Part shown: positions 4,626 through 53,110 of the stretch, piece after piece
Layout: each line of letters starts with the position of its first letter
Position numbering within the stretch: the first letter of the stretch is position 1
Source of the DNA: Flavobacteriales bacterium
Lineage (GTDB): Bacteria; Bacteroidota; Bacteroidia; Flavobacteriales_D; UBA2798
Assembly: GCA_019694795.1 (NCBI GenBank)
Contig: JAIBBF010000007.1
Location: 1-64,000 of the forward strand
Direction of reading: 5' to 3'
Length of the DNA: 64,000 nt
Notes under the pieces: model-generated
Seen by the model: the letters and a program-made list of their open reading frames with translations, nothing else
What the model was told of the DNA's origin: nothing
Database searches by the model: none
Made by a program: the position numbers and the translations under genes

Positions 4626-4779
4626 CACTTCTTTCCTCTATAAACGAATTTTCATTGATAATATGCGTAGAAATGTGAATTCTTAACCAACGGTCATGTT
4701 GTTGCGTATCCGGTTTTCGTTCACCTGGTGATGTTGAAAATTCACCTGCCCATGTACGTTTTTAGGACCTTAGCCTGTG

Positions 4780-4787
4780 TATTTTCG
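4780..4787 (+). promoter_or_regulatory. Possible -7 promoter element (TATTTTCG) for the GH3/beta-lactamase gene
   Basis: One mismatch to TAnnTTTG, 25 bases before the ATG at 4813. It overlaps the alternative start at 4777, which would then be untranscribed. Weak by itself. Confidence 0.3.
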
Positions 4788-4812
4788 GTTCAATTCTTGT
4801 TATTCCCTAAGC

Positions 4813-11137: not shown

Positions 11138-11395
11138 TTTATTCTTTTTGTAAAAATAGAATTAATAATTTGTTCATAGAATAAAAGTTATTTCACTGTT
11201 ATTCAGTGATGTATGCAGATTAATCGATAAAGTAGTCAATTCTTACATTTTCAAAAATTGGTTGATTCCTTTAGTCGTTTGATAGTCCAAATCTTGCGAT
11301 TGGTCAGATTTTAATTCCCGGTTAATAACTCTTTTGGTTTTCAACTCGTTTCTGTGCTCAGTTTCAATAAATTTGTCGAACCAAAATACGTGTTT
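11138..11395. other. Divergent intergenic region
   Basis: This 258-base AT-rich gap between two divergently read genes must hold both promoters. I found no exact TAnnTTTG, no long inverted repeat and no RNA gene. On the minus strand, TATTTTTA lies about 20 bases before the start at 11137. Confidence 0.4.
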
Positions 11396-15151: not shown

Positions 15152-18100
15152 TTGCGACTGATTTTCAGATATAGTTCCATTTTTATTCTTTTCATGTTTG
15201 CGCAAAACGCGTGGGCATGGGGCGATGAAAAAGGCGGATTGAACATAAGGAACTATTCTCCCCAAGAATATGGCGCACACGCTCAAAATCTTTGTATTAC
15301 TCAGGACAAACGCGGAATCATGTACTTCGGTAATAATTCAGGCGTGTTACAATACGACGGTAATTACTGGACTTTAATTGATATTTCCGCAGGTAAAAGT
15401 GTTACCCAATTAGCCGTTGATTCTTCGGGTGTGGTTTATGTTGGAGCAGATGAAGATTTAGGATATTTATTACCGAATGCTAATGGAAAATTGGTGTTTC
15501 ATTCACTGTTATCCAAATTGCCGAAAGAGGTAGAAACACTGGAGCGCTTTGTTGGTGTTTTCCCATCTGATTCTGGTGTTTATTTTATCACCAGAAAATA
15601 CGTTTTATTTTATAACAAGAAATCCTTTTCGGTTATTGAACCCGAAGCACAAATTCATAATTCCTTTTTAGTCGGAGATCAAATTTTTCTGACGTTAAAA
15701 ATAATTGGAATTCATTATTTGAAACAAGGAAAACTGGTAGCTCTTCCAGGGACAGAGGCCTTGCAAAACACCAATATTTACGATATTTCCATGTTCCGCG
15801 GGAATATGGTAATTACCACTTCCGACGATGGAATTTATGTTTACAGAGGCAATCATTTACAATTGGTGAATAAGGAAATTGTAAATGTGTATAATGCCAT
15901 CAATGTATTTAACACCTATTACGCTGTTGGTTTATATGGCGATGGATTAGTTGTCCTGAATAAAAATTTCGAAAAGGAATTTTTCTTTGGATTAAACAAT
16001 GGACTGCAAGACGGAACGATTTCCGATATTTTTGTGGACCGTGAAAATAATTTATGGTTAGCGCTTGTTCGAGGTATTGCTAAAATTGAACTGATTTCTC
16101 CTATATCCTTGCACAACTTTAATACAGGATTAAATGGAACGGTAGAAGACGTAATTCGACACAAGGGAAAAATTTATGCATCCACCTTGAATGGTGTTTT
16201 TTACATGGATCCAGCAGCAGAGGGGGAAAAGAAATTTAAACAAGTTCAGAATTTATCCATCGATTGCTATGGCATGTGCAATTTCATTCTGGAAGGCGAC
16301 ACTGTTCTGTTGATTTCGGGTGTAGATGGAGTTTACGAAATGTTACCCGGAAATATTCCTCACAAAGTGATGGAAGGAGCACCTTGGAATGTGCAACAAT
16401 CCATATCCTATAAAAACCGCGTAATCGTAGCAGAGTATGGTGGATTATCATCGTTTGTGCGCAAAGAAGGAAAGTGGGTTACCGAAGGAATGGTGGAAGG
16501 CATTGAAGGTGATATTTTCAATTTCGTTGAAAAGAAAAACGGCGAACTCTGGTTAGGGACTTCAGACATCGGCGTTGTTAAAACCGATACCCGCGTATTT
16601 ACCGATAAAAACACAAAAATCATATTTTACGATTCCACTTCAGGCATTCCTTCCGGGCTGGTTTATTTAACGCTGGATCCAAACGATAATGTGGTTTTTG
16701 GTACCGACAATGGCATTTTTCAGTTTAATGAAAAGCAAAAAAAATTCTATAAGGATAAAAAATACGATATAAAATCACCTACCGGAAAAACAGGAATTCA
16801 CCGGGTGAACTTTGATAAAAAAGGTCATTTATGGACCTCTGTTTTCTATTCAGGAAACAGTTACGATGTTATGTTTTATAAAAATAATAACTGGTACAAA
16901 ACACCATTTTTAAGATACAACGGCGAGATTGTTCATGCCATGTATCATGAATCGGATGGAACAACGTGGATTGGATCAGCTTCCGGCTTGTTGCGTTTCG
17001 ACCAGAATTTCCAGAAAGAATATGAATCGCTTTTCGATGTTTCGATTCGTGAGGTAAGAGGAGGAAATAAACTGATTTTTGAAGGAGCATTTTTTAATTC
17101 CGATTCACTTCCTGTTTCTGACCAACCGGATTGGTTTGTACCTGAATTAGCGTATACCAACAACAATTTAGAGATTAAATTTTCGGCACTCTCGTTTTTC
17201 GATGAGAAAGCTACTTTGTTTTCATTTATACTCGAAGGGCAGGACAATGAATGGAGTCGCTGGTCTTCATCTTCATCAGCTACCTTTACCAACATCCACG
17301 AAGGAGAATATATCTTTCGGGTGAAAGCCAGAAATGTATATGGTGTTGAATCGGAAGAAGCAACCTTCCGTTTTATCATTTTGCCTCCATGGTACCGAAC
17401 CATTTGGGCTTATATCGCTTATATTATTTTCTTCATCGCTTTTGTTTGGGGAGCAATTTCTGTTTCAACCAGAAGTCTGAAACGTATTATCCAGGAGCGT
17501 ACGGCAGAGATAGTACACCAAAAAGAAGAGATTGAAAAACAAAAGGAAATTGTAGAGGAAAAGAACAAGGATATTCTCGATAGTATTAAATACGCGAAAC
17601 GCATTCAGGATGCTATTCTTCCGGAAGAGGAAACCATGAAAGATGTAATGGGCAAGGACCTCTTTGTTCTATTCCGTCCTAAGGATATCGTTTCGGGTGA
17701 TTTTTACTGGATGAAAGTGAAGGGGCCGAAAGTCCTTTTTGCAGCCGTAGATTGCACTGGTCATGGTGTACCCGGAGCATTCGTATCCATTGTAGGGAAT
17801 AATGGCTTAAATCGGGCCGTAAATGAGTTTGGATTGGTGAAACCTGCCATGGTGTTGGATAACCTGGCTGTTAATGTTGAGGAGAGTTTCCGTCAGCAGG
17901 GTCATTCCGAGGTACGCGATGGAATGGACATATCGCTTTGCAGTTTAGAAATGTTGGGCTTTAATCAGGCAAAACTGGAGTGGAGTGGAGCTAACAATCC
18001 GATTTGGATTATTAAGGGCGAAAATCCGACAGAAGTGCTGGAGGTTAAGGCCGATAAACAACCGATTGGAAAATTTGAAAACAGAAAACCATTTACCAAT

Positions 18101-18337
18101 CACGAATTTGATCTGGTGAAAGGCGATACCATTTATATTTTCACAGATGGATTTGCGGATCAGTTTGGTGGACCACAAGGCAAAAAATTCAAATATTCTC
18201 AGCTGAAAGAACTCTTATTGTCACTTCAGAATTTATCCATGGCCAATCAACGCCAAATCATCAGCGATAAATTCGATGAATGGAAAAACGAATTGGAGCA
18301 AATTGATGATGTCTGCATCATCGGTGTACGCATCTAA
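15152..18337 (+). CDS. Propeller/Y_Y_Y sensor with SpoIIE-type serine phosphatase output
   Basis: A 1,061-residue membrane protein. The start is TTG at 15152, directly after an in-frame TGA; it is the only start that keeps the signal peptide (LIFRYSSIFILFMFAQNAWA). Residues about 30-650 form a two-component-regulator-type beta propeller (for example NLWLALVRGIAKIE and TTWIGSASGLLRFD), then a Y_Y_Y domain to about 745, one membrane segment near 752-772, a coiled coil, and a SpoIIE/PP2C domain from about 809. Its metal-binding motifs are GDFYWM, AAVDCTGHGVPGAFVS, DGMDIS and FTDGFADQFGG. A periplasmic signal probably controls dephosphorylation of a cytoplasmic partner, perhaps an anti-sigma-factor antagonist; no partner gene is adjacent. 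Confidence 0.92.
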   Translation: MRLIFRYSSIFILFMFAQNAWAWGDEKGGLNIRNYSPQEYGAHAQNLCITQDKRGIMYFGNNSGVLQYDGNYWTLIDISAGKSVTQLAVDSSGVVYVGADEDLGYLLPNANGKLVFHSLLSKLPKEVETLERFVGVFPSDSGVYFITRKYVLFYNKKSFSVIEPEAQIHNSFLVGDQIFLTLKIIGIHYLKQGKLVALPGTEALQNTNIYDISMFRGNMVITTSDDGIYVYRGNHLQLVNKEIVNVYNAINVFNTYYAVGLYGDGLVVLNKNFEKEFFFGLNNGLQDGTISDIFVDRENNLWLALVRGIAKIELISPISLHNFNTGLNGTVEDVIRHKGKIYASTLNGVFYMDPAAEGEKKFKQVQNLSIDCYGMCNFILEGDTVLLISGVDGVYEMLPGNIPHKVMEGAPWNVQQSISYKNRVIVAEYGGLSSFVRKEGKWVTEGMVEGIEGDIFNFVEKKNGELWLGTSDIGVVKTDTRVFTDKNTKIIFYDSTSGIPSGLVYLTLDPNDNVVFGTDNGIFQFNEKQKKFYKDKKYDIKSPTGKTGIHRVNFDKKGHLWTSVFYSGNSYDVMFYKNNNWYKTPFLRYNGEIVHAMYHESDGTTWIGSASGLLRFDQNFQKEYESLFDVSIREVRGGNKLIFEGAFFNSDSLPVSDQPDWFVPELAYTNNNLEIKFSALSFFDEKATLFSFILEGQDNEWSRWSSSSSATFTNIHEGEYIFRVKARNVYGVESEEATFRFIILPPWYRTIWAYIAYIIFFIAFVWGAISVSTRSLKRIIQERTAEIVHQKEEIEKQKEIVEEKNKDILDSIKYAKRIQDAILPEEETMKDVMGKDLFVLFRPKDIVSGDFYWMKVKGPKVLFAAVDCTGHGVPGAFVSIVGNNGLNRAVNEFGLVKPAMVLDNLAVNVEESFRQQGHSEVRDGMDISLCSLEMLGFNQAKLEWSGANNPIWIIKGENPTEVLEVKADKQPIGKFENRKPFTNHEFDLVKGDTIYIFTDGFADQFGGPQGKKFKYSQLKELLLSLQNLSMANQRQIISDKFDEWKNELEQIDDVCIIGVRI

Positions 18338-18344
18338 GCAAAAA

Positions 18345-18370
18345 AAAAGGCTTCCGTTAGGAAGCCTTTT
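18345..18370. terminator. Bidirectional rho-independent terminator
   Basis: An inverted repeat with arms AAAAGGCTTCC and GGAAGCCTTTT around a 4-base loop, preceded by A residues and ending in T residues. It can serve the phosphatase gene on the plus strand and the small gene ending at 18388 on the minus strand. Confidence 0.9.
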
Positions 18371-18387
18371 CATTACAAACAATATGA

Positions 18388-18705
18388 TTATACATCGCGG
18401 GTTTTGATGATAACTTTACATCCACCACCTGGAGTTCCACCACCTCGCTTATTCATGGTGAAGATTAAATCGCGTATGATGGCAATTTCATCTGTAGTAG
18501 GGGTTCCGTCTACAGCCAGGTTGGTAATCATTCTAGCTTTGGTAGCCGTTCCTGTTTCATCGGTTTCATACGATACGCCATCATTGTTGCTGATGTTATC
18601 TTTTAATACGTCGCCCTTGTAGGCCACTTCTTTGGCACCGGGTGATGGCAGAATGGTAGCTTGTGTACGATCTGCAGAAATTCCATAAATAATACCTGTG
18701 TTCAT
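18388..18705 (-). CDS. Small protein of unknown function, possibly OB-fold/cold-shock-like
   Basis: A 105-residue soluble protein with no signal peptide and no recognised family. The N-terminal 65 residues (MNTGIIYGISADRTQATIL, then a GDV and a DGVSYETDETGTATKA segment) loosely follow the spacing of a cold-shock or S1-type OB fold, but the RNA-binding KGFGF and VFVH motifs are absent. The end is glycine-rich (GGGTPGGGC) with a single Cys, followed by KVIIKTRDV. It lies on the opposite strand between two phosphatase genes, with a terminator after it and a near-consensus promoter (TAGTATTG, 18730-18737) 25 bases before its start. Function unknown. Confidence 0.75.
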   Translation of the reverse strand: MNTGIIYGISADRTQATILPSPGAKEVAYKGDVLKDNISNNDGVSYETDETGTATKARMITNLAVDGTPTTDEIAIIRDLIFTMNKRGGGTPGGGCKVIIKTRDV

Positions 18706-18763
18706 GATGTGTTTTTTTTAGGTTCTCTACAATACTAAAAAAAGAAAACTATATTTACTAGCG

Positions 18764-20731
18764 ATGAGGGTACTGAAATTACATCTGTTTTTGACCTTTT
18801 TTGGGCTGATTCTTACATTTTCGGGTAAGGCGGAGAATGCGAAACTTGACTCACTTAGCCTTGAACTTGAGCGTGCTAGGTCGGTTGAAGCTAAACTTAA
18901 TATTCTATATGCGATTTCAGTAAATTATAATTTCATTAATCCGGATTCGGCAGTTCTCATCAGTTCTAAAGGAATTGAACTATCCGAGCAAAATCATCAA
19001 ATTTTATTAGAAGCTAAATTTAAATCTTCACTGGCCGATGCGCATCGGATTAAAGGTAATTATCAAGTAGCAATCAATTTATTATTAGAGGCCATTAACA
19101 TTTTTGATGCTAATAATGATGAATTAGGGATGGGAGATTGCTACAATAAAATTGGAGCGGTATATATTGAATTAAATCAGTTTGAAACAGCAATTGACTA
19201 TTTTTTAAAATCATTAGTAAAATTTGAACACCAAAAAAACTTAAAAGGAATTTCGAATTGTCTAAACAATCTTGGTGCTAGCTATTTTTACCTTGAAGAA
19301 TATGAGAAAGCAATTGATTTTTTTAAGAGGTCACTTTCAGTTGAAGAGCAAAATAATAGTAAACAAGGTGTTTGTGAAGGATTAATGAATATTGGTGCTG
19401 TATATCACGGATTAAATAACTATGAATTAGCAGAAAAATATTTTATTGATGCGCAAATAATTGCAAAGGAAATTAATGACAAATCTTTAGAAAGTAATCT
19501 ACTAAATAACATCTCACAAATTCAACTTGATATTAAAGATTATCATGCGGCTATTGAAAACTTAAAAAGGGCAGTTGCACTTGCTTTAGAATCGGGAAAT
19601 TCGGATGATTTAGATACCTACTTAGTTAATTTAAGCGCAGCCTATGCGAGGGCGGGCGACTACCTTTCTGCATACCATACTTCACAGGATTTAATTGTTC
19701 ACCGCGATAGTATCTTAAGTGTAGAAAACCAACGATCCATTGCGGAAATGACCACCAAATACAAGGCGGATCAAAAGGAAAAAGAAAATCAGATTTTACG
19801 TCAGAATGCGGTGATTTCCGATTTGGAAATTGAAAATCAGCGTTGGTGGATGTATGGAATTTCATCAGCACTTTTTGTAATGGTGGTTATCGGATTTTTA
19901 ATCTTCTGGGCTTATCGTCAGAAACAAAAAGCCAATGTGATTTTAAAAGAACAACGGGATACCATTGCCATGCAAAAAAAGGATCTGACAGATTCTATTC
20001 AGTATGCCCGTCATTTACAAGATGCCATATTACCGGAAGATGATTTTCTAAAAGGCGTTTTTGCGGAATCATTTATTTATTATCAGCCAAAAGATATTGT
20101 GTCGGGCGATTTTTATTGGTTTCACGAAAGTGAAGAATATATTTTTCTTTCCGTTGCAGATTGTACCGGACATGGCGTTCCGGGGGCAATGGTAAGTATG
20201 GTTTGTCACAATGCTATTCAGCGGACCGTAACCGAATTCAATATTATTGAAACAGGAAAAATTCTCGATCATGTTTCAGAGTTAATTGAAAAAACCTTTT
20301 CAGGAAATAATCACTCGGTGCATGATGGAATGGATATTTCATTGTTGAGGATTACAAAAAAAGACCTCTCCATTCAATGGTCAGGAGCCAATAATCCATT
20401 ATGGATATTAAGGAAAGATGCAGAAGAAATGGATGTAATTCGTCCAAACCCTCAGCCCATCGGTTCATTTTTCGAGCGCAGTTTATTTACCACCAATCAC
20501 GACCAATTACAACGAGGCGATACCTGTTATCTATTCTCCGATGGTTATGTTGATCAGTTTGGTGGTCCCACAGGTAAAAAATTTAAAACTGGTAACCTGA
20601 AAAAACTGTTTTGTGCCTTATCAAAAACAACACTTCAACACCAACAGGAAATTCTCATCAATACACATATTCAATGGAAAGGTGAGATGGAACAGGTGGA
20701 TGATATTTGCGTTTTAGGAGTTCGGATTTAA
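18764..20731 (+). CDS. TPR sensor with SpoIIE-type serine phosphatase output
   Basis: A 655-residue membrane protein with a signal-like N-terminus (KLHLFLTFFGLILTFSGKA), about six TPR repeats over residues 35-320 (for example YEKAIDFFKRSLSVEE), a coiled coil, a membrane segment near 361-384 (ALFVMVVIGFLIFWAY), and a SpoIIE/PP2C domain from about 408. That domain has DSIQYARHLQDAILP, GDFYWF, SVADCTGHGVPGA, DGMDIS and FSDGYVDQFGG, closely matching the phosphatase half of the gene at 15152. The TPR part is visibly more AT-rich than the phosphatase part, so the two halves may differ in origin. The 3' end overlaps the convergent ferritin-like gene by 18 bases. Confidence 0.92.
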   Translation: MRVLKLHLFLTFFGLILTFSGKAENAKLDSLSLELERARSVEAKLNILYAISVNYNFINPDSAVLISSKGIELSEQNHQILLEAKFKSSLADAHRIKGNYQVAINLLLEAINIFDANNDELGMGDCYNKIGAVYIELNQFETAIDYFLKSLVKFEHQKNLKGISNCLNNLGASYFYLEEYEKAIDFFKRSLSVEEQNNSKQGVCEGLMNIGAVYHGLNNYELAEKYFIDAQIIAKEINDKSLESNLLNNISQIQLDIKDYHAAIENLKRAVALALESGNSDDLDTYLVNLSAAYARAGDYLSAYHTSQDLIVHRDSILSVENQRSIAEMTTKYKADQKEKENQILRQNAVISDLEIENQRWWMYGISSALFVMVVIGFLIFWAYRQKQKANVILKEQRDTIAMQKKDLTDSIQYARHLQDAILPEDDFLKGVFAESFIYYQPKDIVSGDFYWFHESEEYIFLSVADCTGHGVPGAMVSMVCHNAIQRTVTEFNIIETGKILDHVSELIEKTFSGNNHSVHDGMDISLLRITKKDLSIQWSGANNPLWILRKDAEEMDVIRPNPQPIGSFFERSLFTTNHDQLQRGDTCYLFSDGYVDQFGGPTGKKFKTGNLKKLFCALSKTTLQHQQEILINTHIQWKGEMEQVDDICVLGVRI

Positions 20732-22345: not shown

Positions 22346-22438
22346 CCAATAATTCGGCAAAAGGAAAAATAATCAATTTTAAAATTAAAGGAACTTTCAA
22401 TCGTCTTATTTGTTACTTTGAAATCAAATTCACCAGCA

Positions 22439-23563
22439 ATGAAGATTGGAATAGTGTGTTATCCCACGTTTGGAGGGTCCGGAGTAGTGGCAACGGAGTT
22501 AGGAATAGCACTTGCAAATAAAGGACATCAGGTTCATTTTATATCCTACGATCAACCGGTTCGACTCAACGGTGCCCAGAAAAATATTTTTTATCACGAG
22601 GTTCGGGTTTCCGATTATCCCTTATTCGATTATCAGCCCTACGAACTCGTTTTAACCAGTAAGTTGGTTGACGTGGTGAAATATGAAAAGCTCGATTTAT
22701 TGCATGTTCATTACGCCATACCTCACGCCAGTGCAGCTTATATGGCCAAACAAATTCTTAAAAAAGAAGGAATCGATATTCCATATATCACCACCCTGCA
22801 TGGAACGGATATCACCTTATTGGGTAAAGATGAATCCTTTGAACCAGTAATTACATTTGCCATCAATGAAAGTGATGCAGTTACTGCGGTTTCCGAAAGT
22901 TTAAAACAGGACACGGTAAAATTTTTCCACGTAAAACGTGACATCAAAGTGATTCCCAATTTTATTTGTCCGGACGAATATGAAGTTCCCCGTAACGAAG
23001 GATTGCGAAAAATTTATGCACCGAATGGTGAATTTATTCTTACACATATTTCTAATTTTCGTCCCGTTAAGCGAGTAGGGGATGTGATGAAAGTGTTTGA
23101 GCAAGTGAGAAAGGAAATTCCGTCGAAATTATTATTGGTTGGAGATGGACCTGAACGTCACGCCCTGGAGAAAATGTGTCGCGATTCTCATTTATGCGGT
23201 GATGTGATTTTTGTTGGAAAGGTGAAACAGACCATCGATTTATTGCGGTTGTCCGATTTGTTTTTGCTCACTTCAGAAACAGAAAGTTTTGGTCTTGCCG
23301 CATTGGAAGCACTTGCAGCAGGCGTGCCGGTTATCAGTAGTAATACAGGAGGTATTCCGGAAGTTAACGTTCAAAATTATTCCGGATTTTTAAGTGATGT
23401 GGGTAACGTGGAAGAGATGGCTAAAAATGCCATTTCCATTCTCAAGAATCCAGAAAAATTTGAACAGTTTAAATCGAATGCTTTAGAGGTTGCCTCTCGT
23501 TTTAATATTGAGAAAGTGCTGCCTTTATATGAGGATTTATATCACTCGGTGATTCGGAAATAA
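22439..23563 (+). CDS. bshA: N-acetyl-alpha-D-glucosaminyl L-malate synthase BshA (GT4)
   Basis: A 374-residue glycosyltransferase from the ATG at 22439; a TTG at 22418 is less likely. The N-terminus MKIGIVCYPTFGGSGVVATE and the TLHGTDITLLGKD and SETESFGLAALEALAAG segments are characteristic of BshA, which joins UDP-GlcNAc and L-malate as the first step of bacillithiol synthesis. The retaining GT4 donor site (E-x7-E) is the ESFGLAALE region. bshB and bshC are not in the window. Its TAA at 23561-23563 abuts the stop of the giant repeat gene on the other strand with no intervening base. Confidence 0.95.
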   Translation: MKIGIVCYPTFGGSGVVATELGIALANKGHQVHFISYDQPVRLNGAQKNIFYHEVRVSDYPLFDYQPYELVLTSKLVDVVKYEKLDLLHVHYAIPHASAAYMAKQILKKEGIDIPYITTLHGTDITLLGKDESFEPVITFAINESDAVTAVSESLKQDTVKFFHVKRDIKVIPNFICPDEYEVPRNEGLRKIYAPNGEFILTHISNFRPVKRVGDVMKVFEQVRKEIPSKLLLVGDGPERHALEKMCRDSHLCGDVIFVGKVKQTIDLLRLSDLFLLTSETESFGLAALEALAAGVPVISSNTGGIPEVNVQNYSGFLSDVGNVEEMAKNAISILKNPEKFEQFKSNALEVASRFNIEKVLPLYEDLYHSVIRK

Positions 23564-26500
23564 TTATTCTTTCGGAACGGCGGTTTCAACGCTGAATTGA
23601 GTTTCAGAAATGGGTTTTCCATCCTTAAAGTAGGAGTTACCGGTTCGGTTGGTAATCATCAAATATTCGTGAAGATTTTCACCATCGCGCACCATGCGTT
23701 GAATGGTAATTTCAAGCGGACGACCCTGTCCGTCGTTTTTCTGGAACGATTTTTCACTTACTAAACGGGCAGTATTGCCACTGAACGGATCGTTGGTTTG
23801 GTACTTGGTATTCTCCAGTTTTTCCTGGTTATTATCGCGCACCAAATCACCGTGTGATGAAATTTCTTCTTCCTTCAGATTTCTGAAATCCTTTTCTTCC
23901 TGAAGTTTTTTATTGTTTTCACCGGCATTCTGCCCCATATCCGCATAATGATTTTCGCGTTGAATGAGTTCTTCGGTGAGTTGATCTTTGGTTCCCTGAC
24001 GTTTTTCAGTGGCGTTACCTTCGAGTGTACTTTCCGTGTTGTAACGATCTTCTTTTACCTGTGCAATGTTTTGTTCTTTTTCCTGACGGATAATGTCTTC
24101 TTGCGCTAATTGATCGGTTAGCGTATAATTATCCTGCGTCAGTTTTTCACTGGTACCTAGGCGTTTTTCAGTAGCATTACCTTCCAGTGTTCCTTCCATT
24201 TCATAGCGTTGTTCTTTGAAGTCGGAAAGGTTCATGTGTTTTTCCTGGCGAATAATATCTTCCTGCGCTAATTGATCGGTTAATGTATAATTATCCTGTG
24301 TCAGTTTTTCGCTGGTGCTGTAACGTTTTTCAGTGGCACTTCCTTCGAGTGTACTTTCCTGATTGTAGCGGTCTTCTTTAAACTGAGAGATGTTTTGTTC
24401 TTTCTCTTGACGAATAATATCTTCTTGCGCCAATTGATCAGTGAGTGTATAATTATCCTGCGTCAGTTTTTCGCTGGTGCCTAATCGTTTTTCAGTAGCT
24501 GTCCCTTCAAGGGTGCTTTCCTGGTTGTAACGATCTTCTTTAAACTGTGAAATGTTTTGTTCTTTCTCTTGGCGAATAATATCTTCCTGCGCTAATTGAT
24601 CAGTGAGGGTGTAATTATCCTGTGTCAGTTTTTCGCTGTTATCTAATCTCTTTTCCGTTGCATTTCCTTCGAGTGTACCTTCCATTTCATAGCGTTGTTC
24701 TTTGAAATCGGAAAGATTCATATGTTTTTCCTGACGAATAATATCTTCCTGTGCAAGTTGATCGGTTAAACGATAATTATCTTGCGTTAACTGTTCGCTG
24801 GAGCTGTAACGTTTTTCAGTAGCATTTCCTTCGAGTGTAGTTTCGGTCGTGTAAATGTCCTCTTTTTGATCTCCGATATCGCGGACATTTTGGCGACGAA
24901 TCATGTCGGTTCCAACTTCACTGTACACGTAGTCGGTTTTCATTTGTTCGTAAACACGACTATTCTCCAGCAATACCTCATTACGAGATCCGCTCAATTC
25001 TGAATTCGCCACTTCGCGTTGTTCTTTCAAATTGGCATAACCACTTACATTATCGGCACGTTTTTTCTCACCTTCTTCACTATAGGTTTCAAAACTTTCT
25101 TCGACAACAGTAAAGTTCTGGTCGTTTTCAATTCTTCGTTCGTCCTGCTTGTTTGTGGCAATCCTGTTTTGCTCATCAACCGCCAGCTTTTCATCTTCCG
25201 AGCTCGACCAACGGGCTTCATCCAGCTCCGATTTGGTTTTTGCCATTAAAGCCTGCGCTTCTTTTATATCAATATCAACAGGATTTCCATAATACGATTC
25301 TTTAAGAACCGGTGCATTGTTGCCTTGGTTTTGTACTTTTTGCTGATTGAATCCCTGGTTATTGGAGTTATTACTGTTACCTCCTAATAGCGCATCAATT
25401 TCTTTGATTCGTTTTTTAGGGTATTCGATGGTAGGTTGAAGATCGGATGCTTTAACATATAAATCGCGGGCTTCCGTGTAGTTTTTGGTATTAAAGTTCT
25501 TGTTGGCTTCTGCTATTATCTTGTTGTAATCTGAAGCACCCTGTTGAGCATTTTCTTTGGACTTAATTTTCTCCAGCTGATCCTTTGGATATTGTTCATT
25601 CGGCTTAAAGGTTAAAGCCCGTTTGTATAAATCTTTGGCGTCGGACCACTTACTGTTATTAAAATTCTCATCTGCTGCAGCAATAATGGCCTTATACTGA
25701 TTTTCGAAAAATGCTTTTTTGTTTTCTAACTCCTCACGCGATTTCTCAAGCATTTTGGTCGCGTCTTTATCACCGGGAATAGCTTCAAGTGCTTTTTCAA
25801 AGTGAACGATGGCTTTATCAAATGCACCGGCATTAAATTCGTTCATTCCTTTGTTGTACTCAATCTGATATTTTTCTTTAGCACTTGCTTTGGCCGCTAA
25901 TTCATCTTTGAGTCGTTTTGCTTCTTCAATTTTATCCTTAGGATATTGTTCACTTGGATAAATACCTAAAGCTTCATTGTAGGATGCAATGGATTTGTCA
26001 AAATCATTCTTGCCTAATTCTCCATCTGCGCGTTTAACAATGGCATCGTATTTTTTCCTTTTTTCTTCTTCGGCGAGCTTATCATTCAATTTCTTGTTGA
26101 TTTCCTCAATCCGGTTTTTTGGATGCTGATCGGTAGCATTTAATTTAATGGCACGTTCATAATACATTTTTGCATCCGCATAATTTCCGGCATCAAAATC
26201 TTTATCAGCCTGCGCAATAATAAGATCGTATTGTTTCTTGATTTCACCTTGTGAGATTTCTTTTAGGCGAATATTGGCTTTGTCGATCATCTCCTGCGGA
26301 TAGGTTTCGTCAGGTTTGATTTTCATTGCCTCAGCATAAATCTTTTTCGACTCTTCGTATTGCTCACTATTAAAGGCACGATCGGCTTCTTCAACCTTGG
26401 CCTGGTATTTTCTTTTTTGCTCTTCTAACTTGGCATTATTGGCAGCATTAGCAGCTTCCTCCGCTTTTTTCTGATTGGCTTTAGCAATCTGATCATCCGG

Positions 26501-29500
26501 ATATTTTTCAGCTGGCTTTTTGCTTTTTGCCTGTTTGTAAACATCAATTGCCTGATCCCATTGTGAAGCAGCAAAGGCAGCATCCGCCTGGGCAATTAAA
26601 TCTTTATATTCCTGATCTAAACGCGCCTGTTCATCTTTCGCTCTGATTTCATCTTTCTTTTTATTGGCAGCTGCAATCTGATCTTTTGGGTATTGTTCAT
26701 TCGGTTTTAATGCAAGCGCTGCATTGTATTCCTGAATGGCTTCATCATAGGAAGCTGATTTGAAGAACTTGTCGGCCTCAGTTATTTTTTTCAAATACTC
26801 TTCCTCAAGTTTCTTCTTGTTATTTTCTAAGTCTTTTTGTTCCTGAATTTTTGCATTCGCTTTTGCAATTTGATCATCCGGATAGGTTTCTGTACCAATT
26901 ATTTTTTTCGCCGCCTCATAGAGTGGGATAGAAGCAGACCATTGTGCAGCGTTAAATGCGGCATCTGCTTTTTTAATGGCCTCATTGTATTGTGAGCGTA
27001 ATGCTTCGTTTTGTTTTTTCTCGTCGATTTTCTTTTGGGCCTCGGCAGAACGTTCCTTGGGATAGGATTGGTCCTTCATGATGTTGGCAGCACGATCGTA
27101 ATATCCTTTAGCATCTTCATAATTACCGGCATTAAATTCTTTGTCGGCAAAAGCGATCATATCATCATACATCCGTTTTTTATCTGCGAACTTTTTGTCT
27201 TTTTCCTGACGTGCTTTTTCGAGATAATCCGACGCATTTTTATCGTTGGGCGTATAGGTTAAAGCTTCTTCGAAACGCGAGATTGCCAAATCAAATTCTC
27301 CGGCATTATAATGCGTCATTCCTGCATCAAATGCGGCTTTCGATTTCGCTTTCTTTTCATTTTCGGATGCAATTTGCGCTGCTTGTTCATTTTTCTTTTG
27401 TGTGGCAATTGCAATTTGATCTTTTGGTGTTTTTTCGCTGGGTTTAACTTTTAACGCATTATTATAATTTTCGATGGCTTTATCCCAATTACCTGCATTG
27501 AAATCGGCATCTGCTTTAGCCATAAATTCAACAAATTCCTGATCCTTTTTTGCGAGGGCTTCATTCTCTGCCTTTTTGGCTTTGGCTTTCGCAATTTGAT
27601 CGGCAGGGTATTTTTCATTGGCTTTAATTCCCAATGCCGAAGTATAAGCACTAATGGCACTATTCCAATCGCCACTATCAAATGCCACATCTCCCTGCTG
27701 AATAAATTCCTTGTATTTCGCTTCTTGTTCCTCTTTCGATTTGAGTGCTAATTCTTCGTCGTTTTTGGTTTTTCGAACGGCATCCAGTTTAGCCTGATAT
27801 TCCGGTTTCGGATCTAGTCCAATAGCCTCTTCATAGAATTTAATAGCGTCGTCGTATTTTTTCTGAGGAACCAAAGCATCTGCTTTTGCTACCAGATCTT
27901 TTGCTTTTTTAACCAGCGCTTCTTTGTCGAGCAGTTCCTGTTTCTTCTGTTTGGCCTGGTCGATGAGTTCTTGGGGACGACTCTCGCTGGGTTTTAATTT
28001 TTTAGCAGCTTCAAGTGTTGCAATGGCTTTATCAAATTCGGATGCATTCAATTCGGTTTCTCCCTGGCGCATCAGATCCTGATACTGTTTTTCGAGTGCA
28101 GCATTTTTTTCTGCATCCGCTTTTTTCTGTTTAGCCAGATTAATCTGATCGGTCGGATATTTTTCTCCGGGTTTAAGTCCAAGTGCGGAGGTATAGTCGG
28201 CAATGGCTTTATCGTATTCGCCTGCATTTAGATTAGCATCTGCTTTTGCAATCAGGTCCTGATATTGTTTTTCTTTAGCTTCTTTTTCTTTGTTGGCTAA
28301 TTCAGCATCATCCTTCGCTTTTTTAGCTGCATCGAGTTTCTTTTGGTATTCAGAATTGTTATCAAGATTTAGAGCTTCCTGGTAGAGCGCAATGGCATCA
28401 TCGTATTTTTTCTGAGGCAAGAATGCATCAGCTTTGGCAACAAGTTCTTTGGCCTTTTTAATATTGGCTTCTTTGTCGAGCGCTTCTTGTTTTTTCGCTT
28501 TTGCCTGTTCAATCATTTCCTGTGGCTTGGTAGCATCAGGCTTTACTTTTAAAGCAGCTTCATAACCGCTTATGGCTTTGTCCCATTGTGATGCAGTAAA
28601 ATCGGCATCTGCAATTTTCATTAATTCAGTATACTGCTTTTCAATAGCAGCATTTTTTTCTTTGTCGGCCGCTTCCTGCTTCTTTTGTTTGGCCAGGTCG
28701 ATCATTTCCTGGGGTTTACTTTCAGCGGGTTTGAACTTTTTAGCTGCTTCAAAGGAGGCAATCGCTTTATCCCATTGTTGGGCATTTAAATCGGTTTCAC
28801 CTTGCTTCATTAAATCAGCATACTGCTTTTCGGTAGCGGCATTTTTTTCTGCTTCAGCTTTTTTCTGTTTGGCTAGAGCAATCTGATCGGCAGGATATTT
28901 TTCAGAGGGACGCAAAGCTTGTGCTTTCGTGTAGGCTTCAATGGCTTTGTCCCAATTACTTCCGTTAAGTTCATTATCACCTTGGGTGATTAAATCGATA
29001 TACTCTTTATTCGCTTTGTCTAAATTCGCTTTATCGGCTTTTGCTTTATCCAGTTTAGCTTGAACGGCAGGATCTTTTTTAATATCCAATGCCGAGGTGT
29101 AATTGCTTATGGCATCGTCGAGTTTCTTAGCCGTTACGGCATCGTCACCTTTTTTAACGAAGGCAAGGAATTCCTGATTTTTTTTATCGGCATTCGTTTT
29201 GGATTCCTGGGCTTTTGCAATTAAATCCTTTGGTTCCTGTTCAGTTGGTTTTATTTTCTGCGCTTCGGTATATTTTTTTATCGCATCGTCATATTTCCCC
29301 TCATCAAAGAATTTATTTCCGTCGTTAATGGCCGTTGAATAATTTTTATCCTTTTCCATTTCTGCATTGATCAACTTATCAATTTCAGCGATCTTTTGCG
29401 GTGGAAGCGGTTCATTGGGTTTTAGTTTGCCGGCCTCCTGATAATTTAATTTGGCAGTAGCATAATCCTTTTGTTTAAAGGCGGCATCTGCTGCTGTGAT

Positions 29501-30232
29501 TTTCTCCTGGTATTGTTTATCTATTCCCTTTGATGCTTCTAATTCGGCTTGTTTCTTTTTGGCATCATCCAATTTAGCAACTACTGCCGGATCATTTTTA
29601 ATGGCAATGGCTTCGGTATACTTGGTAATGGCAGTTGTATAATCTTTTTTTGTTCCAGCGGCATCACCTTCCTGCACCAGCTTTGCAAATTTGGCATCCG
29701 CTTCGGCAGCACCTTTTTGTTTTTCTTCAATTTTCTTAATGATTTTCGCGAGCTCTGAATTATACGCTTCAACCACTTTAAAATCCCAGTTAACATCCTC
29801 CTCGCGTTTGTCATAACGGATAATTCCCGTCGGCTTGTTGGCTAAAGGGGAATAATCCACTCCTTCTACGATGGGAACCATCGACATATCCAACGGAAAT
29901 CCATATCCTTCTTCCGGAATGTGTGCAGGAGGAATGTTGGTCAGGTCGACCTCCACATACCGGGTGTAAAATCCGGAAATGGTAAATGAAATTTTGTATT
30001 TGGCATCAAGTTCAATTGGATTCAGCTTCACTTTACCGTTGGAACCTGTCGTTTTGGTTTCTACTACTGAACCATTTTTTTCAACCGTAACTGTAACACC
30101 CCCCATCGGAGCGCCGGTCATTTTGTTCACCACTTTGGGGTTATCGAAAATCGCCGGTGGTTTTTCCTGGGCATAGGAAGTAAATGCAAGGAAAATACCA
30201 AGCACCGCTAAATTATGAGCAAGCCATTTCAT
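23564..30232 (-). CDS. Giant exported repeat protein: 24 TPR-like repeats plus 54-residue tandem repeats
   Basis: About 2,222 residues from the ATG at 30232, whose signal peptide ends FLAFTSYAQ; an ATG at 30259 adds 9 residues. A carboxypeptidase-regulatory-like domain covers about 25-110. I count 24 repeats of 56-65 residues, each like a short TPR plus a charged linker (pattern YDKAIxxYTxAxxLKPxExYPxDQI, then K/E-rich helix). A transition segment follows, then five 54-residue repeats (LTQDNYTLTDQLAQEDIIRQ...), and a short domain with TNRTGNSYFKDGKPI at the end. There is no T9SS sorting domain and no OmpA domain. It is probably a periplasmic or envelope-spanning scaffold. Function unknown. 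Confidence 0.93.
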   Translation of the reverse strand: MKWLAHNLAVLGIFLAFTSYAQEKPPAIFDNPKVVNKMTGAPMGGVTVTVEKNGSVVETKTTGSNGKVKLNPIELDAKYKISFTISGFYTRYVEVDLTNIPPAHIPEEGYGFPLDMSMVPIVEGVDYSPLANKPTGIIRYDKREEDVNWDFKVVEAYNSELAKIIKKIEEKQKGAAEADAKFAKLVQEGDAAGTKKDYTTAITKYTEAIAIKNDPAVVAKLDDAKKKQAELEASKGIDKQYQEKITAADAAFKQKDYATAKLNYQEAGKLKPNEPLPPQKIAEIDKLINAEMEKDKNYSTAINDGNKFFDEGKYDDAIKKYTEAQKIKPTEQEPKDLIAKAQESKTNADKKNQEFLAFVKKGDDAVTAKKLDDAISNYTSALDIKKDPAVQAKLDKAKADKANLDKANKEYIDLITQGDNELNGSNWDKAIEAYTKAQALRPSEKYPADQIALAKQKKAEAEKNAATEKQYADLMKQGETDLNAQQWDKAIASFEAAKKFKPAESKPQEMIDLAKQKKQEAADKEKNAAIEKQYTELMKIADADFTASQWDKAISGYEAALKVKPDATKPQEMIEQAKAKKQEALDKEANIKKAKELVAKADAFLPQKKYDDAIALYQEALNLDNNSEYQKKLDAAKKAKDDAELANKEKEAKEKQYQDLIAKADANLNAGEYDKAIADYTSALGLKPGEKYPTDQINLAKQKKADAEKNAALEKQYQDLMRQGETELNASEFDKAIATLEAAKKLKPSESRPQELIDQAKQKKQELLDKEALVKKAKDLVAKADALVPQKKYDDAIKFYEEAIGLDPKPEYQAKLDAVRKTKNDEELALKSKEEQEAKYKEFIQQGDVAFDSGDWNSAISAYTSALGIKANEKYPADQIAKAKAKKAENEALAKKDQEFVEFMAKADADFNAGNWDKAIENYNNALKVKPSEKTPKDQIAIATQKKNEQAAQIASENEKKAKSKAAFDAGMTHYNAGEFDLAISRFEEALTYTPNDKNASDYLEKARQEKDKKFADKKRMYDDMIAFADKEFNAGNYEDAKGYYDRAANIMKDQSYPKERSAEAQKKIDEKKQNEALRSQYNEAIKKADAAFNAAQWSASIPLYEAAKKIIGTETYPDDQIAKANAKIQEQKDLENNKKKLEEEYLKKITEADKFFKSASYDEAIQEYNAALALKPNEQYPKDQIAAANKKKDEIRAKDEQARLDQEYKDLIAQADAAFAASQWDQAIDVYKQAKSKKPAEKYPDDQIAKANQKKAEEAANAANNAKLEEQKRKYQAKVEEADRAFNSEQYEESKKIYAEAMKIKPDETYPQEMIDKANIRLKEISQGEIKKQYDLIIAQADKDFDAGNYADAKMYYERAIKLNATDQHPKNRIEEINKKLNDKLAEEEKRKKYDAIVKRADGELGKNDFDKSIASYNEALGIYPSEQYPKDKIEEAKRLKDELAAKASAKEKYQIEYNKGMNEFNAGAFDKAIVHFEKALEAIPGDKDATKMLEKSREELENKKAFFENQYKAIIAAADENFNNSKWSDAKDLYKRALTFKPNEQYPKDQLEKIKSKENAQQGASDYNKIIAEANKNFNTKNYTEARDLYVKASDLQPTIEYPKKRIKEIDALLGGNSNNSNNQGFNQQKVQNQGNNAPVLKESYYGNPVDIDIKEAQALMAKTKSELDEARWSSSEDEKLAVDEQNRIATNKQDERRIENDQNFTVVEESFETYSEEGEKKRADNVSGYANLKEQREVANSELSGSRNEVLLENSRVYEQMKTDYVYSEVGTDMIRRQNVRDIGDQKEDIYTTETTLEGNATEKRYSSSEQLTQDNYRLTDQLAQEDIIRQEKHMNLSDFKEQRYEMEGTLEGNATEKRLDNSEKLTQDNYTLTDQLAQEDIIRQEKEQNISQFKEDRYNQESTLEGTATEKRLGTSEKLTQDNYTLTDQLAQEDIIRQEKEQNISQFKEDRYNQESTLEGSATEKRYSTSEKLTQDNYTLTDQLAQEDIIRQEKHMNLSDFKEQRYEMEGTLEGNATEKRLGTSEKLTQDNYTLTDQLAQEDIIRQEKEQNIAQVKEDRYNTESTLEGNATEKRQGTKDQLTEELIQRENHYADMGQNAGENNKKLQEEKDFRNLKEEEISSHGDLVRDNNQEKLENTKYQTNDPFSGNTARLVSEKSFQKNDGQGRPLEITIQRMVRDGENLHEYLMITNRTGNSYFKDGKPISETQFSVETAVPKE
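23981..24790 (-). repeat. Five tandem 162-bp units inside the giant repeat gene
   Basis: Units on the minus strand are 24790-24629, 24628-24467, 24466-24305, 24304-24143 and 24142-23981. The register is exact: the CAG of the TCAG or TTAA motif recurs every 162 bases. Two unit types alternate by an internal segment: HMNLSDFKEQRYEMEG in units 1 and 4, and EQNIxQxKEDRYNxES in units 2, 3 and 5. Imperfect partial copies flank the array on both sides. Confidence 0.95.
25340..29700 (-). repeat. 24 tandem TPR-like protein repeats of about 170-200 bp
   Basis: At the protein level the units begin with a [KQ]-x-[LI]-x-x-[GA]-D-x-x-[FL] helix and carry a [YW]-[DN]-[KD]-A-I core. Copies at DNA level are far more diverged than the 162-bp array. 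Boundaries are approximate. Some neighbouring pairs (for example repeats 8-10 and 5-7) look like duplicated blocks. Confidence 0.8.
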
Positions 30233-30307
30233 CGATCGATTTTTCTTCTGTACACCCATTCAAGCCAAAGGTTGAGCCTACCTTACAAATATCGTTAAAA
30301 ATTGCAT

Positions 30308-30315
30308 TAGATTCG
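30308..30315 (+). promoter_or_regulatory. Possible -7 promoter element (TAGATTCG) for the FAD oxidoreductase
   Basis: One mismatch to TAnnTTTG, 24 bases before the ATG at 30340. No convincing -33 element. Confidence 0.3.
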
Positions 30316-30339
30316 CCTTTAGGACTAATAACAAAGACC

Positions 30340-31455
30340 ATGCAATTAAGTTACTGGGAGAAAAAGCGATTTTTTGATGGCATCGATGTGGCCATCATCG
30401 GAAGTGGTATTGTAGGACTTTCTGCAGCCATTGAACTGAAACGGACTGCGCCCAATAAAAAAATAGTGGTTCTTGAACGAGGATTCCTGCCCTATGGAGC
30501 CAGTACCAGAAATGCGGGATTTGCATGCTTTGGAAGTATAACTGAATTGGAGGAGGACCTACTTTCGGTAGGCGAACAAGAGACCTTTGCATTGGTGGAA
30601 CGTCGTTATAAAGGATTGGTTAATTTGCGTCAATTACTTGGCGATCATTCCATTGGATTGGAACGGAAAGGTGGATATGAAGTGTTTTCTTCGGAAGAAG
30701 AATGGGAAAAGGCGAGAACCAGAATTCCCTATTTCAATCAGCTTTTAGCAAATGGCATTGGGGAAAAAGTGTATTCTGAATTTACTTCATTGGAATCCCA
30801 GTTTGGTTTTTCGGGATTTAAGGGTGCTATTTTAAACCAATTCGAAGCCCAAATTGATACCGGAGAAATGATGGCTAATCTATTGCGACTTGCCCAAAAA
30901 GAGGGAATCATCATTTTAAACGGAATTCAGGTAGAGGACCTGGATGGTCAACGGATTATTACCCGGGATTTCGATTTTAAGGTGGGACAGGTTTTAATTA
31001 CGACCAATGGCTTCGCCCGCCAATTAATTCCTGAATTGAATGTAGACCCTGCCAGAGCACAAGTATTGGTTACGGAAGAAATACCGGGACTAAAACTGGA
31101 AGGAACATTTCATTATCAGAAAGGTTATTATTACTTCAGAAATATTGGGAAAAGGATCCTGTTGGGTGGCGGTAGAAATCTCGATTTCGAAGGCGAAAAA
31201 AGCACAGAAATGATTCAGACTTCCAGAATTCAGGAAGCGCTGGAAGAATTGCTTTATCAGCATATCATTCCTTATGAAAAACCTAACATCGAAATGCGTT
31301 GGAGTGGGGTAATGGGAGTTGGAGAAAAACGGTCACCGATTGTTAAGCAACTTAATGCACATCAATTCTGTGCAGTGCGAATGGGAGGAATGGGTGTGGC
31401 AATTGGAACCTTAGTAGGAAAAGATATTGCAACCTTAATGTTATCCGCAAATTAA
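30340..31455 (+). CDS. FAD-dependent amine/amino-acid oxidoreductase (DAO family)
   Basis: A 371-residue enzyme from the ATG at 30340. The frame extends back to 30184, but that would read through the start of the divergent giant gene. The dinucleotide-binding motif DVAIIGSGIVGLSAAIELKR is near residues 15-35, the second FAD contact is VLERGFLPYGASTRNAGF, and the C-terminal MRWSGVMGVGEKRSPIV plus GMGVAIGT complete the D-amino-acid-oxidase fold. The substrate is probably a secondary amine or amino acid, not resolvable here. It is a single gene with a 4-base convergent overlap with the membrane protein ending at 31452. Confidence 0.9.
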   Translation: MQLSYWEKKRFFDGIDVAIIGSGIVGLSAAIELKRTAPNKKIVVLERGFLPYGASTRNAGFACFGSITELEEDLLSVGEQETFALVERRYKGLVNLRQLLGDHSIGLERKGGYEVFSSEEEWEKARTRIPYFNQLLANGIGEKVYSEFTSLESQFGFSGFKGAILNQFEAQIDTGEMMANLLRLAQKEGIIILNGIQVEDLDGQRIITRDFDFKVGQVLITTNGFARQLIPELNVDPARAQVLVTEEIPGLKLEGTFHYQKGYYYFRNIGKRILLGGGRNLDFEGEKSTEMIQTSRIQEALEELLYQHIIPYEKPNIEMRWSGVMGVGEKRSPIVKQLNAHQFCAVRMGGMGVAIGTLVGKDIATLMLSAN

Positions 31456-32054
31456 AATAACCAGCGTAAGGAAGCATAAGTCAGGAAGTCGAATACAGCC
31501 GACAAACTGAATAGCAAAATGAAATTATAAATACCATTGCCCGGCTCATTTTCTCTTTGGTATTTCCACACAATTGAAACACCAGTTAATCCGCAAATCC
31601 AGTAGCTAAATGCGGAGAGAGGCACCTCGGTTTTTCCCAGGAAATTACCCGGTAAAAAAATTAAGGTTGCAATTAAAAACAGATTAAACATCATCCATTG
31701 CCGACCCCATTCTTTGGGTGTTTTCATATAGGATTTCACAAAAGTGAAAAGGTGAAAAACACTGGCAATGATTAAAAGCACATAGGAAAAAAAAGCAAAT
31801 CCAAAGGTATTGTCGCCCACCTGCATCATGTCCGCCCAGGCGCTGATTCCCAATGAGGATGTTAATGAAATTAAAGCAAAACGTTCAGAATCTTTTTGCG
31901 ACTGAAGTGCAAAATAAATTCCAATACCGGTTAATGCAATGGCATCAATGTAAATGGGCGGAATAAATTTTCCGGGTTGTCCCAATAAATTTGCTATTCC
32001 AAAAACAACAAACGTTAAAAGGGCAGAAATGGCAATTTTGAATGATTTTCTCAT
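31452..32054 (-). CDS. Multi-pass membrane protein of unknown function
   Basis: A 200-residue hydrophobic protein with about six membrane segments (for example ISALLTFVVFGIANLLG and FFSYVLLIIASVFHLFTF). A short charged loop (KSYMKTPKEWGRQ) lies in the middle. No catalytic motif or family is recognised. It starts on the last base of the lipoprotein gene (32054), so the two form an operon with probable translational coupling, and its end overlaps the FAD gene on the other strand by 4 bases. Confidence 0.75.
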   Translation of the reverse strand: MRKSFKIAISALLTFVVFGIANLLGQPGKFIPPIYIDAIALTGIGIYFALQSQKDSERFALISLTSSLGISAWADMMQVGDNTFGFAFFSYVLLIIASVFHLFTFVKSYMKTPKEWGRQWMMFNLFLIATLIFLPGNFLGKTEVPLSAFSYWICGLTGVSIVWKYQRENEPGNGIYNFILLFSLSAVFDFLTYASLRWLF

Positions 32055-32662
32055 TAGAATCCCCAGGAGAAATTATCGATGTACACTTTATTGAGCGAAT
32101 CCATTTTATCTTCTTTCACAAAGTGATCGTTTAATTCGACAACAGTGGTAGGTTCATAATGATTTTTTCTCCATTCATGATAGATAGCTACCGTTCCAAC
32201 TACTCCATCTTTATAACGAATAATCATATCATATTTGCCGGAAGGAGTGGTGCGTAATTCCAATAGTTCCCCGGCAAAATCATTGGTGACTTTAAACACG
32301 CCATCAATTTTTGCAATGTTCAATACGCGGAAATCCGGTGAATACACATTTGCTTTTGCTTCAACCAAAAATCCTTCATTCCAATTACCACTTCGGTGAT
32401 TCATAAAAACCCGAAAACGATCATGTCCGCACAATGGATTTTTCAACGAATCCGGTTTAGAAGGATCAAGGTTTATATCACATAATCCAACACCGCTCAT
32501 AATGGAAACCACCACCGTGTCCTGATATTCGGGATAGGATAAATCAATCAGAATTTTTTCAGAAGCGAAGGTGTCGACAGGAATAACATTCTTTTTTTCT
32601 TCACTGGTGCAGGAAGAAAATGCTACGATAAAGGCAAGGCAGAATAAAAGTGGTGCTTTCAT
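32054..32662 (-). CDS. Lipoprotein of unknown function
   Basis: A 202-residue lipoprotein with signal LFCLAFIVAFSSC, lipidated Cys near 18, and a polar CTSEEKKN start to the mature part. The rest is beta-rich and has Cys residues at VGLCDIN and NPLCGHDRF that might pair. No known domain is recognised. An exact TATTTTTG promoter lies 4 bases before its ATG, so the mRNA may be leaderless. It is followed without a gap by the membrane protein at 31452, which may work with it in the envelope. Confidence 0.82.
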   Translation of the reverse strand: MKAPLLFCLAFIVAFSSCTSEEKKNVIPVDTFASEKILIDLSYPEYQDTVVVSIMSGVGLCDINLDPSKPDSLKNPLCGHDRFRVFMNHRSGNWNEGFLVEAKANVYSPDFRVLNIAKIDGVFKVTNDFAGELLELRTTPSGKYDMIIRYKDGVVGTVAIYHEWRKNHYEPTTVVELNDHFVKEDKMDSLNKVYIDNFSWGF

Positions 32663-32666
32663 AATG

Positions 32667-32674
32667 CAAAAATA
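32667..32674 (-). promoter_or_regulatory. -7 promoter element (TATTTTTG) with 4-base spacer to ATG
   Basis: An exact TAnnTTTG match on the minus strand followed by CATT and the ATG at 32662. The distance places the likely transcription start at or within a few bases of the start codon. Confidence 0.55.
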
Positions 32675-32677
32675 CCA

Positions 32678-33307
32678 TTAGAAATGATATTGAAAGCCTA
32701 GTTGAACACCGATTTGATGGGAATATATCTCCAGATTCTGACTTTCTTTTAAAGCCGCAAGGTTTTGTCGCCACCCGAAACCAAAATTAAGCGCTGCCTG
32801 ATCCGAAAACTGGATAAGGATTCCTCCTCCGATTCCTGCATAAAATCCACTATAACCCGATGTATACTTTGGAGCAATTAAAGGATCTGTTTCCTGATAG
32901 TATTTTCCTTTTGCCTGAATGCTGTTCACGGCAGATAGTGAAAAATAGGGTGTAAAGCGATTAATTTCATTGGGAAAACGAAAAATAAAATCGACAGGAA
33001 TTTCAATCATTTGATGATCGGAATAGGGATAATAACCAGTTGTGGAAATATGGTTTAATTGAAAATAGTCAACCCCCGACTGAATAGAAATCTCTTCGCT
33101 AATGTTCGTTCCAATACGCAATCCGCCACCAGGAGTATAGGTGCTAAAACGGAAATTTCCTTCTCCAAAAGTAAAAGCATCGCCATTTGCCTTAATCAGG
33201 AAATAGACATTTCCGGCTTTTTTAGAGGCTGCATCACAAAAGCATTTTTGAGCATTTGCCTGTGGGATGAATGCTGCTAATAGAAATATGCCAAGAACTA
33301 AGCGCAT
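32678..33307 (-). CDS. Outer-membrane beta-barrel protein (PorT/OmpW-like fold)
   Basis: A 209-residue protein from the ATG at 33307 with signal peptide MRLVLGIFLLAAFIPQANAQ; the frame also opens at 33385 but that adds a non-signal N-terminus. Alternating hydrophobic strands (FSTYTPGGGLRIGTNISEEI, FTPYFSLSAV, GFYAGIGGGILIQFSDQAAL) and the terminal aromatic LGFQYHF are typical of small outer-membrane barrels. Two Cys lie just after the signal (QKCFCDAASKK). Transport or structural role unknown. It sits 15 bases before the lipoprotein gene, which has its own promoter within that gap. Confidence 0.82.
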   Translation of the reverse strand: MRLVLGIFLLAAFIPQANAQKCFCDAASKKAGNVYFLIKANGDAFTFGEGNFRFSTYTPGGGLRIGTNISEEISIQSGVDYFQLNHISTTGYYPYSDHQMIEIPVDFIFRFPNEINRFTPYFSLSAVNSIQAKGKYYQETDPLIAPKYTSGYSGFYAGIGGGILIQFSDQAALNFGFGWRQNLAALKESQNLEIYSHQIGVQLGFQYHF

Positions 33308-33505
33308 AAAAGTTGAACTTAAAAAGAGGATAAAATGTTGCTTATTGGTCCAACTAAAAAGGGCACAAAGGACCCAAAATTCCATAAATCACCCCTTCGG
33401 GTGAAGAATTAAATTTAATTGATTAACAATCGTTTATAGTTATTAACAATTTATCAATTAATGTTAGTAACTATTTAATTCGACTGAATATCAAGGTGTC
33501 GGAAA
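33308..33505. other. AT-rich intergenic region
   Basis: About 200 bases between the HMG-CoA-lyase-like gene and the beta-barrel gene, very AT-rich (TTAATTGATTAACAATC and similar). No exact promoter element, terminator or small gene was identified. Confidence 0.4.
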
Positions 33506-53100: not shown

Positions 53101-53110
53101 TGAAACTTAC

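Follow-up and report, generated by a model that had tools for sequence, protein, structure and literature searches.

The gene at 23564-30259 on the minus strand of the 64,000-nucleotide stretch of DNA analysed here (the window) encodes a giant exported protein which, judged by sequence comparison, is one member of a broad Bacteroidota family in which the ends are conserved and the middle can be exchanged. An earlier note on this DNA had given the coordinates exactly and the length as about 2,200 residues (2231 aa), but had treated the protein as a lone giant; instead, it belongs to a family that also has a conserved FAD-oxidoreductase neighbour. A diagnostic new C-terminal domain unites the giant, for which 'TPR protein' would otherwise be the sole annotation, with hundreds of further proteins. 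The function tentatively preferred here, at slightly less than an even chance, is that of a secreted, non-lipidated envelope rod, most likely periplasmic, acting as a tether or spacer with two docking ends. Conserved ends joined by an exchangeable rod make a clear and testable functional prediction, and little is understood of how the outer membrane is tethered in this phylum.

The gene and its product

The reading frame starts with an ATG at 30259, and its stop codon ends at 23564. The gene is single copy, with one match in its own genome, and no plasmid copies were found. Its features are collected in Table 1. The export proposed earlier is in line with an N-terminal signal peptide ending in ...FTSYA/QEK. 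The relatives likewise possess a hydrophobic N-terminus ending in ..AQ or ..GQ, and a signal peptide is present in all family members printed. Cysteine is absent from the entire protein, and a motif check for a lipobox gave no match in 114 family members. Pfam recognises the TPRs and a weak carboxypeptidase-regulatory domain with no further match; in particular, neither an OmpA domain nor a T9SS tail (Por_Secre_tail or CHU_C) was detected. The earlier statement that OmpA, T9SS and lipoprotein anchors are missing is therefore borne out by Pfam and the motif check. An assembly artefact of repeats was ruled out, as a congener (G001), assembled independently, has a homologue of 2402 aa whose frame is open throughout, and the repeat copies have diverged.

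Table 1. Features of the giant gene and of its divergent neighbour (window coordinates)
Feature	Residues	Coordinates	Strand	Basis and remarks
Whole giant gene		23564..30259	-	ORF and translation; 2231 aa
Signal peptide	1-30	30170..30259	-	Sequence; signal-peptidase-I-like site SYA/Q, without lipobox
N-domain	34-158	29786..30160	-	Pfam, profile against PDB, AlphaFold2; carboxypeptidase-regulatory/Cna-B-like beta-sandwich with family-specific extension
24 TPR units	190-1622	25394..29692	-	Iterated HMM; AlphaFold2 on residues 34-474; Pfam TPR
Asn/Gln/Ser-rich linker	1627-1660	25280..25381	-	Sequence
Long charged helical region (predicted)	1661-2140	23840..25279	-	AlphaFold2 on residues 1800-2231, medium confidence
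54-residue repeats	1808-2131	23867..24838	-	Five full copies at 1808-2077, then degenerate
C-terminal family domain (C-domain)	2148-2231	23567..23818	-	Alignments A1/A3, AlphaFold2; beta-meander and short helix
Divergent intergenic region, 80 bp		30260..30339	.	Start codons of the two genes
FAD-dependent oxidoreductase (DAO family)		30340..31455	+	Pfam DAO 4e-43; divergent from the giant; likely start 30340, MQLSYWE

The TPR array

An iterated profile reproduced exactly the 24 TPR-like repeats counted earlier, each with an i-Evalue of at most 3e-15 and spaced by approximately 60 residues. Pfam TPR_2 matches the giant with an E value of 6e-54 (176 bits against a cut-off of 27). With the curated cut-off passed, 24 units and modelled helix pairs, the giant belongs to the TPR repeat superfamily. 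The region is indeed lysine-rich (16.7% Lys), and the regular PxExYPxDQI linker between the units was confirmed and is found repeatedly in the family.

The structure prediction proposed in the earlier note was carried out for residues 34-474 with AlphaFold2 and 31 homologues. The model (pLDDT 94.9) consists of the beta-sandwich N-domain followed by helices of 35-44 residues that alternate with helices of 14 residues, in which the long helix of each unit links one TPR hairpin to the next. Its overall shape is not fixed, as the pTM is 0.47. Foldseek returned only local matches to TPR proteins, with TM values of 0.10-0.15 and rmsd values of 23-51 Å, and the model is therefore not a compact TPR superhelix. 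The similarity to canonical TPR proteins, such as OGT, consensus TPR arrays and BamD, lies in the hairpin consensus (local Foldseek E down to 1.4e-7). The canonical unit comprises 34 residues, whereas that of the giant comprises around 60 with a long shared helix, and a TM of about 0.1 indicates another overall arrangement.

The long helical region and its repeats

The second repeat class noticed earlier consists of 54 residues and is present in five full copies plus partial ones. The full copies share 72-94% pairwise identity in amino acids and 68-88% in nucleotides. This nucleotide divergence marks them as old copies, not as the product of a collapsed or stuttered assembly. In the giant, identity at lag 54 stands 32 sd above shuffled sequences. 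A heptad coiled coil was considered for these repeats and is unsupported, the period being 54, equivalent to 15 helical turns of 3.6 residues. For residues 1800-2231, AlphaFold2 predicts helices of roughly 220 and 100 residues with medium confidence.

The period recurs in relatives whose repeat sequence is unlike that of the giant. Within the order, most members keep a 54-residue internal period in the helix following the TPRs, also where the repeat sequences differ. Of the 23 order and named relatives that have a long coil, 13, in families including f1, f3, f5, f6, f9, f11 and f13, place lag 54 first or second out of 115 lags; by the same ranking it is absent in family f4. Outside the order, it ranks first in two families (L212, L213).

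The terminal domains

The N-domain matches Pfam CarboxypepD_reg with an E value of 5e-6 and 27.2 bits, below the curated cut-off of 32.3 bits. Profile comparison with the PDB retrieved the SdrD B domain (7.5e-9) and Cna B (1.5e-5), and the domain is modelled as beta strands with a pLDDT above 90.

The small end domain reported earlier proved to be conserved across the family. It measures about 60 residues, is common to all full-length proteins at 20 loci drawn from numerous families across the order, and follows the consensus LAxxYPxGVTEE...RIVVxGNKGDEY...YYFKNGxSISExTW. In every member it occupies the extreme C-terminus, on carriers ranging from about 240 to 2400 aa. The model of residues 1800-2231 predicts a beta-meander and a short helix, with a pLDDT mostly of 92-98 over 2166-2226. 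The C-domain has no match in Pfam or among PDB sequences. Por_Secre_tail and CHU_C are unmatched across the C-domain set; the TolA-III/TonB C-terminal domain gave no Pfam match and does not appear among the Foldseek matches listed for the C-domain model.

The nearest shape in the PDB is the N-lobe beta-meander of the SMC head (Smc1, 1w1w), superposed over 45 residues at 1.7 Å with 31% identity. The Foldseek E value is 0.076; the profile E value is 0.24 with A1, while the deeper A3 does not return the match at E ≤ 10. As neither type of match is significant, homology to the SMC head was rejected as unproven; there is also no ATPase. In a separate search, the SMC family TIGR02168 was above cut-off in 0/24 genomes of the order compared with 10/14 control genomes, and these bacteria may use a different condensin.

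Distribution and architectures of the family

Of 245 near-complete genomes from the window's order, 237 carry the C-domain, usually in a single copy, and 60/60 genera are represented. The order takes in the Crocinitomicaceae, and both genomes tested from that family carry it. Across the class, the deeper profile A3 detected the C-domain in 178/396 sampled genomes and 81/199 genera, with 1-8 copies each. It was not found in the roughly eight named Flavobacteriaceae or in the tested genomes of Pedobacter and Pontibacter. As the C-domain is near-universal in the order and occurs in almost half of the sampled class genomes, it probably has a core envelope role. A gene specific to the order had been suggested by profile A1 (3/296 phylum genomes), a view withdrawn after the A3 result on the class sample. 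The A1-negative families f14-f20 are also not among the A3 positives, and therefore sampling is the main reason for the discrepancy. The N-domain is present in 37 of 40 relatives (25/27 genera), where it mostly opens frames of 900-2400 aa.

Several architectures can be distinguished. In one layout, the N-domain and C-domain flank 2-25 TPR units; members of 906-925 aa have five TPRs, and L062 has 22 without a coil. The giant of the window adds the 54-residue-repeat helix between TPRs and C-domain. L067 has a mixed helix and TPR middle between both end domains. In L044 the two ends enclose a TolA-like helix without TPRs, and NCBIfam scores L044 as TolA with 79 bits; judged by profile, L198 and L202 are built in the same way. 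TPRs followed by the C-domain, without an N-domain, occur in L197, L204 and L206, and a single TPR with the C-domain forms proteins of about 240-300 aa (L152-L155, L196, L200, L205). N-only proteins span about 170-200 aa. Three genomes (L195, L203, L207) encode an operon of an N-only protein, an N-TPR2-C protein and a protein with five or six TPRs between both ends. At the gene level, the TPR array is wholly replaced by a TolA-II-like low-complexity helix in L044:612-2681 and mostly so in L067:1928-4975. Genus g10 of family f9 (e.g., L142-L145) has short versions of 843-878 aa with a diverged C-domain.

No characterised family matching the giant was found in Pfam, NCBIfam, PDB sequences or the open-access literature searched. 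TPR rods and periplasmic tethers are already known kinds; the searched libraries hold nothing that combines a new C-domain and a TPR unit with a long helix with exchangeable middles and a conserved helical period of 54 residues.

Neighbouring genes

The homologue and neighbour search, also suggested earlier, identified the FAD oxidoreductase as the sole conserved neighbour, adjoining the family gene in 14/20 loci of the order. It also lies beside the family gene in other families (L044, L047, L062, L067, L210, L214). Flavobacteriaceae without the giant encode the same oxidoreductase next to accB/accC or mtgA, and it therefore looks like an ordinary enzyme. For this reason, deriving the giant's function from its DAO neighbour was rejected, and the divergent pairing suggests shared regulation at most. 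T9SS genes are not among the neighbours of the family gene, and in the loci read no inner-membrane anchor or motor gene (TolQR/ExbBD) was seen next to it.

On the other side, bshA (22418-23563, plus strand; bacillithiol synthesis, 552 bits) is convergent with the giant gene at zero gap. In the window's genus it adjoins the giant or lies close to it, and it is also near the family gene in f10, L040 and L043.

Comparison with known systems

PorE (PG1058) is a T9SS-associated lipoprotein with the order TPR, beta-propeller, CRD and OmpA_C. The giant resembles it as an exported Bacteroidota protein combining TPRs with a carboxypeptidase-regulatory-like domain, the latter assignment resting on a 27.2-bit match below cut-off and on SdrD B at 7.5e-9. 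In the giant, however, the domain order is reversed, the TPRs are far more numerous and the C-domain is added. Unlike PorE, it lacks a PD40/WD40 beta-propeller (no PD40 match), the peptidoglycan-binding OmpA_C domain and N-terminal lipidation, having no cysteine, with no lipobox in 114 members.

Some family members resemble domain II of TolA in having a long Ala/Lys/Glu-rich helix between end domains. The end domains differ from those of TolA, and the giant has TPRs in place of the TolA-II helix. In addition, the family has a cleavable signal peptide with an SYA/Q-type site, as read from the sequence, in contrast to the uncleaved inner-membrane helix of TolA and TonB. Compared with T9SS cargo, the giant lacks a C-terminal sorting domain of type A or B.

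Proposed role in the cell envelope

In the preferred tether reading, the N-domain and C-domain would be the working ends, docking on envelope partners, and the helical middle, whether made of TPR units, the 54-residue-repeat helix or a TolA-like helix, would mainly set distance and stiffness. The giant would thus hold two envelope structures apart. Because the ends are kept and other extended helical designs replace the middle, the latter most likely serves as a rod, with the specific work left to the ends. The ends are constant across middles with 24, 5 or 22 TPRs, mixed middles and TolA-like ones. Also counted in favour of a tether are the long and short helix units, the non-superhelical Foldseek result, the 54-residue period kept across families, the operons with N-only, short and long members, and secretion without a lipobox (signal peptide in all printed members, lipobox in 0/114). 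A periplasmic location is favoured because PorE and TonB-dependent transporters have CRD-like domains that are located in the periplasm (PMC7192894, PMC12204202). The signal peptide, repeats, conserved ends, exchangeable middle and distribution are read directly from sequence, and the helix pattern and C-domain fold are predicted; from these we infer the rod shape, periplasmic location, docking and tethering.

Fully extended, the giant is estimated at 24 units of about 3 nm each, to which the helix adds up to 79 nm. This is far more than a normal periplasm could accommodate, and the molecule would therefore have to be folded back on itself, run along the wall or be extracellular. The earlier suggestion that the repeats could span much of the periplasm is thus plausible and perhaps understated, as the modelled long and short helix units would together exceed it when extended. 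Array length varies several-fold, from 4 to 25 units, which argues against a fixed ruler. A wider proposal, regarded as quite unlikely, is a Bacteroidia-wide, unrecognised tether system in which interchangeable rods join two docking domains, N-only and single-TPR-C proteins serve as caps or partners, and the whole takes over the work performed by Tol-Pal in other Gram-negative bacteria.

TPRs usually bind ligands, and the array could accordingly be a multivalent scaffold and not a spacer. This is the main rival of the tether, though rather unlikely: the TPRs, classic protein-binding modules, would bind many copies of one or more envelope proteins (e.g., of the T9SS, gliding or outer-membrane-assembly machinery), with array length setting the stoichiometry. 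Members that have exchanged the TPRs for a TolA-like helix nevertheless keep both ends (L044; L198 and L202 by profile). A link to the T9SS might be seen in SprA, which is present in 177/178 C-domain-positive genomes, and 10/11 SprA-negative genomes lack the C-domain. The one exception is G602; SprA is present in the remaining sampled members of its family. However, SprA is found in 36/36 order genomes tested and in 385/396 class genomes, so that its co-occurrence adds little. Furthermore, 208 of the 385 T9SS genomes in the class are without the C-domain, the few genomes that lack SprA cluster by family, and the neighbourhoods are free of T9SS genes. Dependence of the family on the T9SS was consequently set aside, leaving a weak one-way association with SprA.

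A cell-surface fibre appears improbable. Here the rod would project from the cell as a filament for gliding or adhesion, and the C-domain would be a T9SS tail of non-canonical type, a new signal for sorting to the outer membrane or anchoring there. The extended length suits such a filament, and the C-domain does terminate proteins of very different size in T9SS-bearing bacteria. T9SS tails sit on many unrelated cargos, whereas the remaining parts of C-domain carriers, an N-domain and/or TPRs of one type, are family-specific too; the low copy number per genome and the unmatched Por_Secre_tail and CHU_C profiles also speak against it.

Very improbable is a force-transducing or outer-membrane-tethering system in place of Tol-Pal, which is reported missing from Bacteroidetes (PMC12204202): some members have a TolA-II-like middle and contact between CRD-like domains and TonB-like proteins has been proposed (PMC12204202), but an adjoining anchor or motor gene was not found, the family lacks a TolA/TonB C-terminal domain and a peptidoglycan-binding domain, and the Flavobacteriaceae tested have no C-domain.

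Other genes in the window

Two conserved proteins without Pfam match are encoded at 31452-33385 (minus strand), beside a small outer-membrane beta-barrel protein, and the gene order is the same in the congener L024. Three related genes lie side by side at 48779-55608 (minus strand), including a PorE-like protein (50419-53100; TPR, PD40, CarboxypepD_reg, OmpA) and one with PD40 and CRD-like domains (53179-55608). A T9SS cargo of 1233 aa with PKD domains, SprB repeats and a Por_Secre_tail is encoded at 11354-15055 (plus strand). Two SpoIIE-phosphatase sensor-like proteins, of the Reg_prop/Y_Y_Y and TPR types, are located close together at 15152-20731 (plus strand). The gene at 4777-7797 (plus strand) encodes a glycoside hydrolase of family 3 fused to a beta-lactamase-like domain; L040 and L043 have this fusion gene close to the family gene as well.
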